From Corallium rubrum (taxonomy: Eukaryota > Cnidaria > Anthozoa > Scleralcyonacea > Coralliidae): a stretch of 64,000 bases of DNA. This document shows positions 7,758-58,162 of this stretch, one piece after another (within the stretch, counting starts at the first letter, position 1; each line of letters begins with the position of its first letter). The stretch lies in contig OZ035997.1 of the NCBI GenBank assembly GCA_964035015.1, forward strand, positions 15,321,459-15,385,458. Reading direction: 5' to 3'. The position numbers were made by a program, and so were the translations under genes. Under the pieces are notes generated by a model, which searched no databases, had not been told where the DNA came from, and was given only the letters and a program-made list of their open reading frames with translations.

Positions 7758-8000
7758 AATAGTTAAAATGGTTTCGTCACTACTCCGAGTTTCACGCGTA
7801 TTGCGATCTTCAGGTAACTGACAGTTTATATCATAGTTATATCATAACCCACCGACTATGATATAAACGAATAATTGAAGCCGAACTGTCAGTTACCTGA
7901 AGATCGCAATACGCGTGAAACTCGGAGTAGTGACGAAACCATTTTAACTATTTTATTACGCTCTACCTTTCATGGTATCGAGCACTCTTGAACCATCCGC
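7755..8000. mobile_element. PLE-like 3' tail in perfect inverted repeat
   Basis: Sequence 7755-7827 recurs as an exact reverse complement at 7887-7960, with a spacer around TTATATCATAGTTATATCATA. Each arm holds a hammerhead-like motif (7776-7818 minus, 7892-7934 plus). The right arm continues into a tail with GCTCTACCT...GGTATCGAGCACT before a (TA)n array, as at other PLE 3' ends in this window. No RT or EN frame remains. I infer a solo PLE terminal repeat pair. Confidence 0.5.
7892..7934 (+). ncRNA. Hammerhead-ribozyme-like motif (hairpin stem III)
   Basis: Stem I GUUAC/GUGAC; core CUGAAGA; stem II CGC-AAUAC-GCG with one unpaired U on each side; GAA; stem III ACU-CGG-AGU; cleavage-site A; then the 3' strand of stem I. 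All conserved hammerhead core positions are present. An exact inverse copy lies at 7776-7818 on the minus strand. Activity is inferred, not shown. Confidence 0.55.
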
Positions 8001-8039
8001 CAGCTTTGTAACATCCATGTTACAAACTTGCTTTAGTAC

Positions 8040-8148
8040 ATATATATATATATATATATATATATATATATATATATATATATATATATATATATATATA
8101 TATATATATATATATATATATATATATATATATATATATATATATATA
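8040..8148. repeat. (TA)n microsatellite at PLE-A end
   Basis: About 108 bp of uninterrupted TA directly abutting the 3' terminus of PLE-A arm 1. Confidence 0.95.
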
Positions 8149-8198
8149 AAAATATTACCAGGGTTAAGTCACGTTGGTCTGAAAAACAGAGAAAAATC

Positions 8199-8236
8199 TT
8201 CTCGACGTTTCGAGCGAAGGCCCTTCGTCAGGAGAA
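8199..8236 (-). ncRNA. Hammerhead-ribozyme-like motif, PLE-A arm 1
   Basis: On the minus strand: stem I UUCUC/GAGAA, core CUGACGA, one extra A, stem II GGG-CCUUCG-CUC, GAA, palindromic stem III ACGU, cleavage-site C. The palindromic four-base stem III is the layout expected of a ribozyme acting as a dimer. Lies in the 3' UTR downstream of the endonuclease frame. Confidence 0.6.
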
Positions 8237-8486
8237 ATTAGTAAACAACTCACATGTGGTCACGCGTATTTATAGCAGAGCTACAATAGGAATCACGTGA
8301 ACACATGTAAGCCAATAAAAACAAAGTAAACAAATAAATTAATATGTAATTTTAGCCTGTGTGCAGGTGCTGACCCAATTTGTGGGTCAGCTACCTGCAA
8401 ATAGGCAAAGAAACAGGTTATAAATTACTATTTAAATCATCAGAAAAAGGTTAAGGAAAAGGTGTGGAATATGGTGGTGGAGTGAG

Positions 8487-55779: not shown

Positions 55780-56235
55780 TGTGTAAATTTAAAGATCAAT
55801 GATCATACAACGTACAGCATTCAAGATCGATACCATTACAATGTAATGATACCATTACAATGACAATGACACCATTACAATGATACCATTACAATGACAC
55901 CATTACAATGATACCATTACACTCACTAAATGGTTTCTTTGTCAATATTGTAACCATTACAATGTAATGTAATTCCTGTAAGTCTCTGCAAGAAAGTTGG
56001 AGTTAATATCGTAAAGCTGGAGCCAAACTAATTTCGTATCCAGGACATGAAATTAAAGTAGTAGGAAAGACCACGATTGCTGTGGAATGTAAAGATAGAT
56101 ATTATCTGGTTGAAATACAAGTGGTAGATGCAAATGTCATTCCAGTATTGGGATTGCAAAGTAGCACCAAGCTGAAATTAATCAAGAGGCTACATACCAT
56201 TGAATCATACCATTGCACCACTTGCAAATTCTTGC
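55780..56235 (+). pseudogene. Ty3/gypsy-type retroelement protease region, decayed
   Basis: Translated pieces read CVNLKINDHT, CNVIPVSLCKKVGVN, HEIKVVGKTTIAVECKD and IPVLGLQSS..LIKRLHTIES. They match the order of a gypsy-type retropepsin and its flap region. The segment expected to hold the catalytic Asp motif is replaced by tandem GATACCATTACAAT repeats (about 55830-55925). No RT, RNase H or integrase was found; sequence after 56235 is tandem repeat. Confidence 0.55.
55830..55925 (+). repeat. (GATACCATTACAAT)n-like tandem repeat
   Basis: Six to seven irregular units of CCATTACAATGATA or CCATTACAATGACA inside the decayed protease region. Confidence 0.85.
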
Positions 56236-56740
56236 TTGCAAGATCCTGTAAGATCCTGGCAAGATTTGCAACTTCTTGCCAAGATCTTGCAACTTCTTGC
56301 CAAGATCCTGGCAAAATCTTGTAAATTCTTGCCAAGATCTTGTAAGTTCTTGGCAAGATCCTGTAAGATCTTGGCAAGATCTTGCAAATTCTTGCCAAGG
56401 TCTTCCAATATCCTGGCAAGATCTTGTAAATCCTTGCCAAGATCCACCAAGATTTTGAAAATTCTTACCAAAATTCTGTAAGATCTTGGCAAGATCTTGT
56501 AAGATCATGCCAAGATCTTGGGAAGAACCTGTAAGATGGCAAGATCTCGCAAGATCCTGCAAGATCATGCCAAGATCTTGGGAAGAACCTGTAAGATGGC
56601 AAGATCTCGCAAGATCCTGCAAGATCATGCCAAGATCTTGGGAAGAACCTGTAAGATGGCAAGATCTTGCAAGATCCTGCAAGATCATGACAAGATCTTG
56701 CAGGATTTTTGAAAAATCTTGGTAAGATCTTGCCAAGATT
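56226..56740 (+). repeat. CAAGATCTTG tandem array with 60-bp higher-order unit
   Basis: The palindromic word CAAGATCTTG and close variants recur every 10-20 bp. At about 56505-56700 a 60-bp unit (GGGAAGAACCTGTAAGATGG...) is repeated three times with almost no change. Open in all frames, producing spurious ORFs. Confidence 0.9.
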
Positions 56741-56922
56741 CTCGACCTGGGAAACAGTGAAAACAATTACCGACAAGTTACTTTCTGATGACACAACATG
56801 GCAAACAAGAACCAACCTAAGTAATACGACATCCTTGACCTTCTTGACCTATGCCTCTCAACTGAATTCCGCTTCCAAGACAAATACTGTACTACCTGTA
56901 CAAACAAGTATCCAGCACCCCG

Positions 56923-57228
56923 ATGGGATCTCCACTTTCCAGTTTCCTCACTGAAGTGGTGCTGCAAGACCTGGAGAAAAAGTCTGTATCGAATAACAAA
57001 GACATAAGACTATGGGACAGATATGTCGACGACGTTTTGGCAGTAGTGAAGACAAACAAAATTAACAACATACTGCAAACGATTAACAACACCACTGACA
57101 ACATTACATTCATGATAGAAGAAGAACATGACAACAAACTCGCCTTTCTTGATGTTTTACTAACCAAGACTAATGACGGCACCACACACAGGTTTACAGA
57201 AAGAAAACTAACACCGACCAAATACTGA
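56923..57228 (+). pseudogene. PLE-C reverse transcriptase fragment
   Basis: 101 codons spanning RT motifs 4-6: GSPLSSFLTEVVLQDLEKK, then RYVDDVLAVVKT (catalytic DD) and KLAFLDVLLTKTNDG. It ends at a stop after FTERKLTPTKY, where intact relatives would continue. Confidence 0.85.
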
Positions 57229-58122
57229 ATTACAACAGCAACCTACCCAACACAAGATCAGTTGTATCAAAACACTGTTCAACAGATCGACACACACTGC
57301 AGCACACAACAATCTAAACAGAACGAATCAAACTACCTATACCAGACATTCCTTAAGAACAACTACCCAAAACACTTTATACGCAAAATCACGACACAAA
57401 GAAATCACACACAAACCAAGACTACGGTCCAACACCCAAACAATGCAACACAAGAAAAGAAAAAAGTGGTTCTACCATACATCCAGACCATATCCGAAAT
57501 AACAACCAGATTACTCAGACAACACAACACAGAAGTACCTCACAAACCATTACACAAACTCTCCACCAACTTTACTATAAACACAAAGACAGAATTACCA
57601 CAACTGACCGATGCAACGCAATCTACATATTCCCTTGCGATGACTGCCCACTAAAATACATCAGCGAAACATCCAAGAAAGTTAAGTCAAGACTAACCGA
57701 ACAAAGGAATGCAATCAAACGACATGATCACAAATCCCTTCCAGCAATCCACGCAGATAACCATGGCCACACATTTAACTGGACTCAAATGAAAGTTCTA
57801 GGCCAAACCTCAACAGCGGAGATACCCGGCCTGGGTACGAGGTTGCAACAAGACATGCCTGTGAGTGCAAATGAGGAATGGTACTGTACAACAGAGAAAA
57901 ACACACATTTAACAGACACGTTGAAATACCTACTATTTACCATCAACTAAAACACACTCAACATTCGATCTCCTATAAAGTAATAACCAATCAGAACCAA
58001 CCACTGGGAACACCAACCAATCAAAAATCTACCAAAAACAACAAACCAATCAGAAGCTTGGATCACATATCACAACAAAATGCAAATAATATAAACGAAG
58101 AACCCAAACTCTAACCACCTTA

Positions 58123-58162
58123 TTTCTGATGAAGACTCGAAGGACCGAGTTGAAAGCTCAAA
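58123..58162 (+). ncRNA. Hammerhead-ribozyme-like motif, PLE-C
   Basis: Short stem I UUU/AAA, core CUGAUGA, extra A, stem II GACUCG-AAGGAC-CGAGUU (one G-U pair), GAA, palindromic stem III AGCU, cleavage-site C. Same architecture as PLE-A with unrelated stem sequences. Confidence 0.5.

Follow-up and report, generated by a model that had tools for sequence, protein, structure and literature searches.

Probable minimal type I hammerhead motifs of Penelope-like elements in a 64-kb stretch of the Corallium rubrum genome

Results

Hammerhead-type motifs in the window

Penelope-like elements (PLEs) and motifs of the hammerhead ribozyme (HHR) type lie together in a 64,000-nt stretch of the Corallium rubrum genome (assembly GCA_964035015.1, contig OZ035997.1, positions 15,321,459 to 15,385,458). 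This stretch, hereafter the window, was analysed inside the whole genome of 474 Mb in 312 contigs. It was scanned with a descriptor consisting of the core CUGANGA, GAA and H17, a stem I of at least 3 bp, a stem II of at least 3 bp with at most one unpaired base per side, and an A-U-closed stem III formed by a palindrome or a hairpin. Seven motifs were found in the window versus a total of 15 in 100 Markov-shuffled windows (0.15 per shuffle). The window motifs scored 11-15, and the shuffle hits were mostly low, with one each at 12, 13 and 16. The hammerhead-type motifs in the window are real, and all seven have the CUGANGA and GAA core, the A15.1-U16.1 pair and H17 in type I order, as the descriptor requires. 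An earlier note, made from the sequence alone, had quoted five of them. All five were present as described, except that the motif at 8199-8236 lies on the minus strand, and the list was incomplete, two intact motifs at 7776-7818 (-) and 38057-38096 (-) having gone unquoted.

Three of the motifs belong to one PLE family, termed B1. The B1 motif at 8198..8237 (-) has stem I UUCUC/GAGAA, an unpaired A, stem II GGGC/GCUC, stem III ACGU and C at H17, and those at 38057..38096 (-) and 40848..40887 (+) have G as the unpaired base. A G-U pair occurs in stem II of the B1 motifs. A damaged B1 motif, the twin and partner of 8198-8237 with ACAUC replacing ACGUC, lies at 11772..11811 (+). The motif at 30484..30527 (+) consists of stem I UUGCU/AGCAA, an unpaired A, stem II GGCCUG/CAGGCC, stem III AGCU and U at H17, and the motif at 58123..58162 (+) of a 3-bp stem I UUU/AAA, an unpaired A, stem II GACUCG/CGAGUU, stem III AGCU and C at H17. 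The remaining two, 7776..7818 (-) and its partner at 7892..7934 (+), identical to each other and arranged head-to-head, form the U-U class; an inverted self-match spans 7605-8145. Both have stem I GUUAC/GUGAC, a U-U mismatch, stem II CGC/GCG, stem III ACU-CGG-AGU and A at H17.

Stem III is diminished to a 4-base palindrome in five of the seven motifs (ACGU at 8198, 38057 and 40848; AGCU at 30484 and 58123), and the 7776 and 7892 motifs carry a 3-bp hairpin instead. The earlier argument that motifs with a palindromic stem III act as dimers therefore keeps its premise in those five, but is inapplicable to 7892 and its twin 7776, which belong to another class. One unpaired base by stem II, also described earlier, was found as stated; its description as usually A does not hold, since the window has A in three motifs, G in two and U (of the U-U mismatch) in two. 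Among the damaged relatives that had been proposed, 20865..20893 (-), with a CUAACGA core, and 48869..48896 (-), with an intact core, stem I UCU/AGA and a weak stem II, resemble a second and abundant family, B2. The one at 35727 is part of a damaged inverted pair (35671..35852) with damaged AGCU-type motifs on both strands, and at 13613 the core is changed to CUAAUGA and no stem I was found.

The B1 open frame at 8487..10163 (-) matched RVT_1 (E 4.7e-7) and, under the curated cut-off, GIY-YIG (E 0.0026) in Pfam; a search of the PDB with this frame gave no match. Reverse transcriptase and the weak GIY-YIG match share one open frame, which bears out the association with PLEs originally claimed. 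The opposite arm holds a partial B1 frame (10632..11522, +). Upstream of the 58123 motif, the open frame at 57357..57950 (+) shares 26 of 82 residues with the C-terminal part of the B1 frame, to which it is related, and had no GIY-YIG match in Pfam. The B1 and 58123 motifs sit downstream of PLE frames, and the 30484 and 7892 motifs have no frame of their own in the window. In the 58123 family the CUGAUGA core holds an ATG, and by eye the frame is open through motif and tail to (AT)n (58129-58232), a trait shared with the lizard PLE (PMC11167929).

The 30484 motif stands between two minus-strand frames without Pfam matches and beside a frame with a sub-threshold RVT_1 match. The cluster to which it belongs makes up 73 of the first 100 AGCU-type places listed in the genome, often as divergent pairs, and the motif is therefore read as a putative solo end of another PLE family, of which no frame was seen. 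The frames at 27379-30437 (-), including the one with the sub-threshold RVT_1 match, are those of another retroelement, and the 30484 motif lies just beyond them.

Abundance and covariation in the genome

Each class of motif was counted in the whole genome against the same pattern read backwards. The ACGU-type pattern gave 15,344 matches versus 179, the AGCU-type pattern 3,591 versus 149, and the U-U class pattern 2,642 versus 1. With G replacing H at position 17, the ACGU pattern matched 216 times (control 18) versus 15,344 for H, and several of these G17 places are retrozyme-type motifs with a longer stem III.

Covariation was tested in 21 core-to-GAA segments from the window and other loci, some of which are related and a few probably chance matches, with 5000 partner shuffles. 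Stem I pairs 1-3 formed beyond the shuffles (2, 0 and 0 of 5000 reached the observed value), and pairs 4 and 5 were not above them in these 21 segments (824 and 1983 of 5000). In the register with one unpaired base, stem II pairs 2-5 were above the shuffles (4, 1, 27 and 64 of 5000) and pair 1 was not (688 of 5000). With no unpaired base in the register, pair 3 alone stood out (1 of 5000), and with two unpaired bases none did. Stems I and II covary between families, as expected of the hammerhead architecture with compensated stems that the earlier note had described. This covariation was taken to show that selection on the source elements keeps the motif as a folded RNA element.

The 100 places listed first for each of the ACGU and AGCU patterns contained 88 distinct cores, 66 of them with a stem II of at least 3 bp. 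Among these listed matches, the register with one unpaired base was found in 54 of the 66 cores and the canonical register in two; by distinct core string, the unpaired base was A in 35, U in 17 and G in two. After clustering of the same matches, a stem II of at least 3 bp was present in 24 of 36 clusters, and 20 of these 24 had the one-unpaired-base register, the base being U in 11, A in seven and G in two. Shuffled segments picked this register alone in 5.5% of cases. The pair 10.1-11.1 directly beside A9 and G12, which is characteristic of canonical hammerheads, was lacking from 20 of the 24 clusters and from the 7892 class. In the U-U motifs of the sequences examined (L004, L086 and the window; n=3), stems I and II are paired and unrelated from motif to motif, and each motif has a 3-bp stem III.

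Folding energy does not single out the hammerhead fold. Among the predicted minimum-energy folds of six window motifs as monomers, that of 30484 is the only one in which stems I and II form and the core stays free; in the three B1 motifs stems I and II form, but the core bases GACG pair with CGUC. A plain hairpin belongs to the lowest-energy monomer fold of B1, but was set aside for this family because the register-specific covariation favours a hammerhead.

A search with the Rfam covariance models, which had been proposed as a check, did not detect the motifs: the window had no hammerhead match at the gathering score, and none among the 47 matches up to E 10, all of which fell below their gathering scores. 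Canonical type I hammerheads of retrozyme-like appearance were seen elsewhere in the genome (L001-L008). Another element family (L072, L075) carries a hammerhead-like motif in the canonical register, with an 11-bp stem II, a 3-bp stem III and TATA-like boxes near -48.

TATA boxes upstream of the motif

TATA sequences were found upstream of the four window motifs on the plus strand. These are TATAAAC at 7862..7868, 35 nt upstream of the 7892-7934 core; TATAAAT at 30452..30458, 37 nt upstream of the 30484-30527 core; TATAAATA at 40807..40814, 47 nt upstream of the 40848-40887 core; and TATAAAC at 58090..58096, 36 nt upstream of the 58123-58162 core. For the B1 motifs on the minus strand, TATTTATA (TATAAATA on the minus strand) was read from the sequence at 8267-8274, near 8198..8237, and at 38126-38133, near 38057..38096. 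The distance of TATAAATA is 43 nt in the B1 copy L083, from which the 40848 copy differs by a short insertion.

The core is preceded at 35-43 nt by a TATA box in seven of 12 PLE-type or U-U entries (30484, 58123, 7892, B1, B2, L009 and L027); at random positions the frequency of a box at -46 to -33, a slot that was chosen post hoc, is 4.3%. Genome-wide, TATAAA starts 31-44 nt upstream of ACGU- or AGCU-type cores in 3,541 cases (reversed control 7) and 51-64 nt upstream in 218 (reversed control 42), counts that are dominated by large families. Among the matches listed, a TATA box was found for 19 of 81 segments at distances of -31 to -44, and about seven unrelated families have it between -32 and -43.

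The spacing of close divergent pairs was compared with these distances. In B2-type pairs the core-to-core gap was 16-20 nt in six of eight, two of the six looking like one locus copied. This leaves 8-10 nt per arm, and a box at -40 predicts a start near -9. Among AGCU pairs closer than 200 bp, two of six had gaps of 10 and 12 nt, and among U-U pairs nine of 19 had gaps of 4-15 nt. Since the arms of close pairs often end beside the motif, an RNA start there would be the simplest reading. By eye, 40839-40912 and the corresponding place in other B1 copies also have bases like TACUAAU (TACCAAT in the window copy) before the motif and, after it, a pyrimidine run up to CAG|G, a layout resembling a branch point and a 3′ splice site on either side of the hammerhead.

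5′ ends of B1 copies

An anchor of 33 bases in the B1 tail had 2,110 exact matches in the genome, and 5′ ends were placed for 63 B1 copies, comprising the first 60 anchor places listed and three in the window. Each end is expressed as d, a count of the element bases that precede the anchor; on this scale cleavage is predicted at d 19, stem I starts at d 52, and ACUAA and TATAAATA follow at d 58 and d 90. Three ends fell at d 0-17, none at 18-20, eight at 21-51, 11 at 52-62, none at 63-72, two at 73-100, eight at 101-300, 21 at 301-1000 and ten beyond 1000, the longest values being lower bounds and internal deletions possibly mimicking ends. The 11 ends just upstream of stem I form a pile-up (binomial p 8.7e-6 among the 26 copies with d ≤118) in an 11-nt bin that was picked after inspecting earlier end data. 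The TATA spacing, taken with the pile-up of 5′ ends, suggests that the motif marks the 5′ end of the PLE transcript as well, and that this transcript most likely begins at the motif or a few bases before it. The placement of the motifs at PLE 3′ ends in the earlier note describes the insertions correctly, but is incomplete in this respect.

A cut RNA serving as template would give 5′ ends at the cleavage site. Not one of the 63 B1 copies ended there. The whole motif was present in 52 of the 63 copies, 41 of which extend upstream of it, indicating that the copied RNA was uncut at the motif. For this one family, the copies are taken to show that the RNAs that became insertions were mostly uncut. 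This agrees with results for an Anolis PLE, whose HHR mutants inserted normally, whose HHR cleaved only with protein, and for which RNA-seq gave no ends at the site (PMC11167929). Uncut templates do not show that other transcripts stay uncut.

Head-to-head pairs

Two head-to-head B1 pairs are present in the window. The pair at 8037..11988 has (AT)n on both sides, a short tail on the 8198 arm and a long tail on the 11772 arm; the pair at 37850..41068, also with (AT)n flanks, carries its long tail on the 38057 arm and the short one on the arm of 40848. In four lists of 100 matches, neighbours less than 1 kb apart were divergent (- then +) in 15, 13, 13 and 20 cases versus 2, 3, 2 and 3 in other orientations, among the matches listed, with copies shared between the ACGU and B1 lists and one +,+ case representing overlapping matches of one motif.

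A target-site duplication was shared in ten of the 13 B1 pairs compared out of 16 (a raw count), three in (TA)n being unscorable. The duplications were 9-14 bp in eight pairs by script and about 10 bp in L066 and L092 by eye. One long and one short tail were found in 15 of the 16 pairs, 14 by script and the fifteenth, whose long tail has a small deletion, by eye. The two arms of 14 pairs differed in length by 4 to about 1,490 bases. On the grounds of the shared duplication and the unlike tails, each pair is probably one insertion built of two cDNAs. At L037 (contig positions 1399149-1402176), four B2 motifs were seen in alternating orientation, with palindromic junctions centred on AGCTTATATAAGCT.

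Discussion

The role of PLE hammerheads has been called "still a mystery" (PMC7761336), and the origin of head-to-head PLE copies was left open (PMC3846280). Thousands of copies in one genome make both questions testable from sequence. We consider it likely that the window motifs are minimal type I hammerhead motifs of several PLE families, and that they take part in the following process. A TATA box 32-43 nt upstream of the core in many families would start the transcript at the motif or just before it. The element protein would open both strands of an AT-rich target. It would then begin reverse transcription at either of two sites downstream of the motif, giving a short or a long tail, and proceed on each side of the break towards the 5′ end of the RNA; to judge from the copies, the product would be two head-to-head arms flanked by a single target-site duplication. 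Were the motif the start of the transcript, its self-cleavage would take away the cap, limiting the possible functions, and the copies indicate that cut RNA rarely serves as template. Pairs that have unlike tails and share one duplication support priming on both sides of the break. In the literature searched, only in vitro work on the protein of the lizard (Anolis) element shows that both strands are cleaved and extended (PMC11167929).

Self-cleavage of the motifs and their action as dimers are predictions only. For transcripts other than the templates, protein-assisted cleavage is the preferred reading, by analogy with the lizard PLE (PMC11167929). More tentatively, and with doubt, we suggest that the hammerhead could be the cap-proximal first ~40 bases of the mRNA and act as a protein-controlled switch, in which the protein, bound to the RNA next to the motif to start two-sided reverse transcription, would also decide on folding and cutting. 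RNAs bound for insertion would stay whole and others would lose the cap, the unpaired U or A helping naked RNA to stay inactive.

Several observations weigh against the account of transcript start, two-sided priming and uncut templates. The TATA box was absent at the expected place in five of the 12 entries (L018, L056, two in L004, and L086). The bin of the 5′-end pile-up was, as noted, selected with end data in hand; four of the eight ends within d 21-51 cluster at d 38-41, and 11 of the 63 B1 copies stop inside or downstream of the motif, so that copies commonly stop early and ends cluster elsewhere too. In seven of the 14 B1 pairs the lengths of the arms are no more than 4-61 nt apart, which is unexpected for independent cDNAs. 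In vitro, the lizard enzyme shows no difference in start site between the strands (PMC11167929), unlike the long and short rule found here. Strict published filters reject motifs without a 10.1-11.1 pair beside the core (PMC3088659). Finally, the account was built on sequence data.

The strongest competing explanation, which is possible but clearly the less probable, is that the motif is a hammerhead by descent and not a working ribozyme, serving instead as a structured 5′ leader, for example as a protein binding site near the reverse-transcription starts. The absence of copy ends at the cleavage site (0 of 63) and the whole motif in 52 of 63 copies would follow from it, as would the B1 fold that pairs GACG with CGUC and the free core of only one (30484) of the six folded motifs; the lizard HHR is likewise inactive without protein (PMC11167929). 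However, the core letters and H17 are kept while the stems change, which fits catalysis better than plain structure. The templates, moreover, would be only those RNAs that escaped cleavage, and uncut templates are therefore no proof of inactivity.

That the pairs arose by self-priming on an antisense template, as proposed for Adineta (PMC3846280), and not by two-sided priming, seems unlikely. The near-equal arms of half the 14 B1 pairs, differing by 4-61 nt, keep self-priming in consideration, and in the L037 array a junction lying at the TATA box is palindromic; palindromic junctions have been reported for Adineta (PMC3846280). The arms of the other half, however, differ by 221 to about 1,490 nt, and the unlike tails of 15 of 16 pairs are not expected of a folded-back copy.

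A descent of the window motifs from metazoan retrozymes, as remnants of these small elements that have circular RNA and canonical type I hammerheads, is very improbable. Canonical type I hammerheads do occur in this genome, where 40 of the 47 scored matches exceeded the Rfam cut-off (RF00163), and a coral carrying retrozymes has been reported (PMC7229834). The canonical motifs in L001-L008, however, lack the extra base by stem II that the window motifs have, the window motifs were unmatched by Rfam, and B1 motifs run on into the PLE frame in longer copies. A retrozyme origin was rejected for the window motifs, which are not canonical and are found in head-to-head PLE copies or singly, not in tandem repeats of 150-450 bp. 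Chance or low-complexity resemblance, for which the occasional matches in shuffled windows, one at score 16, might be cited, is refuted by genome counts 24 to over 2,000 times those of the reversed patterns and by the register-specific covariation, and can be dismissed.

The motif family is already known from published PLE hammerheads, coral motifs and hammerheads with a U10.1-U11.1 mismatch. Minimal type I PLE variants are attributed to Cervera & De la Pena 2014 and Lunse et al. 2017 (via PMC7761336, PMC6155905). There they are said to lack a real helix III, to occur in tandem and perhaps to act as dimers, with a role still unknown; dimer cleavage was proposed for them. The motifs of the window resemble them in the conserved core, the little or absent stem III, the PLE link and the wide genomic occurrence, and differ in that the 7892 class has a real 3-bp stem III. 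The unpaired U or A beside stem II may also be known already. More than 6,000 type I motifs in 16 families were found in Acropora millepora, all but 1,508 of them like the minimal PLE/Terminon variants, although that study centred on canonical retrozyme motifs (PMC7229834). The axolotl HHR_Amex2 resembles the 7892 class in its U-U mismatch and more stable helix III (PMC7229834), and active hammerheads with a U10.1-U11.1 mismatch have been described (PMC3088659).

The PLE of Anolis (PAc; PMC11167929) shares with the elements described here a motif beside the junction of the pseudo-long terminal repeat (pLTR) and the open reading frame, AT-rich targets, an uncut RNA template and two reverse-transcription start sites that define the tail. 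Its start codon lies at stem II, whereas here only the 58123 family has an ATG, and that in the core; cleavage was shown with protein there, whereas the motifs here are known from sequence alone. Penelope elements of Adineta vaga (PMC3846280) resemble those of C. rubrum in several respects: their pLTRs contain a TATA box and an initiator-like sequence and occur inverted, head-to-head; their targets are AT-rich and are duplicated; and one arm bears a tail. They differ in that the main text of that paper never uses the word hammerhead, and head-to-head units are ascribed to self-priming. Neither the link between TATA box, copy ends and motif nor the long and short pair rule was found stated in the literature searched.

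Other features of the window

An open frame of 1,062 aa at 31958-35146 (+) encodes what we take to be an NB-ARC/TPR-repeat protein. A repeat of about 500 bp is present in two tandem copies, 78% identical, at 26181-27173. Long low-complexity open frames composed of short repeats, satellite-like in appearance, occupy 50281-52090 (-) and 56182-56766 (-).

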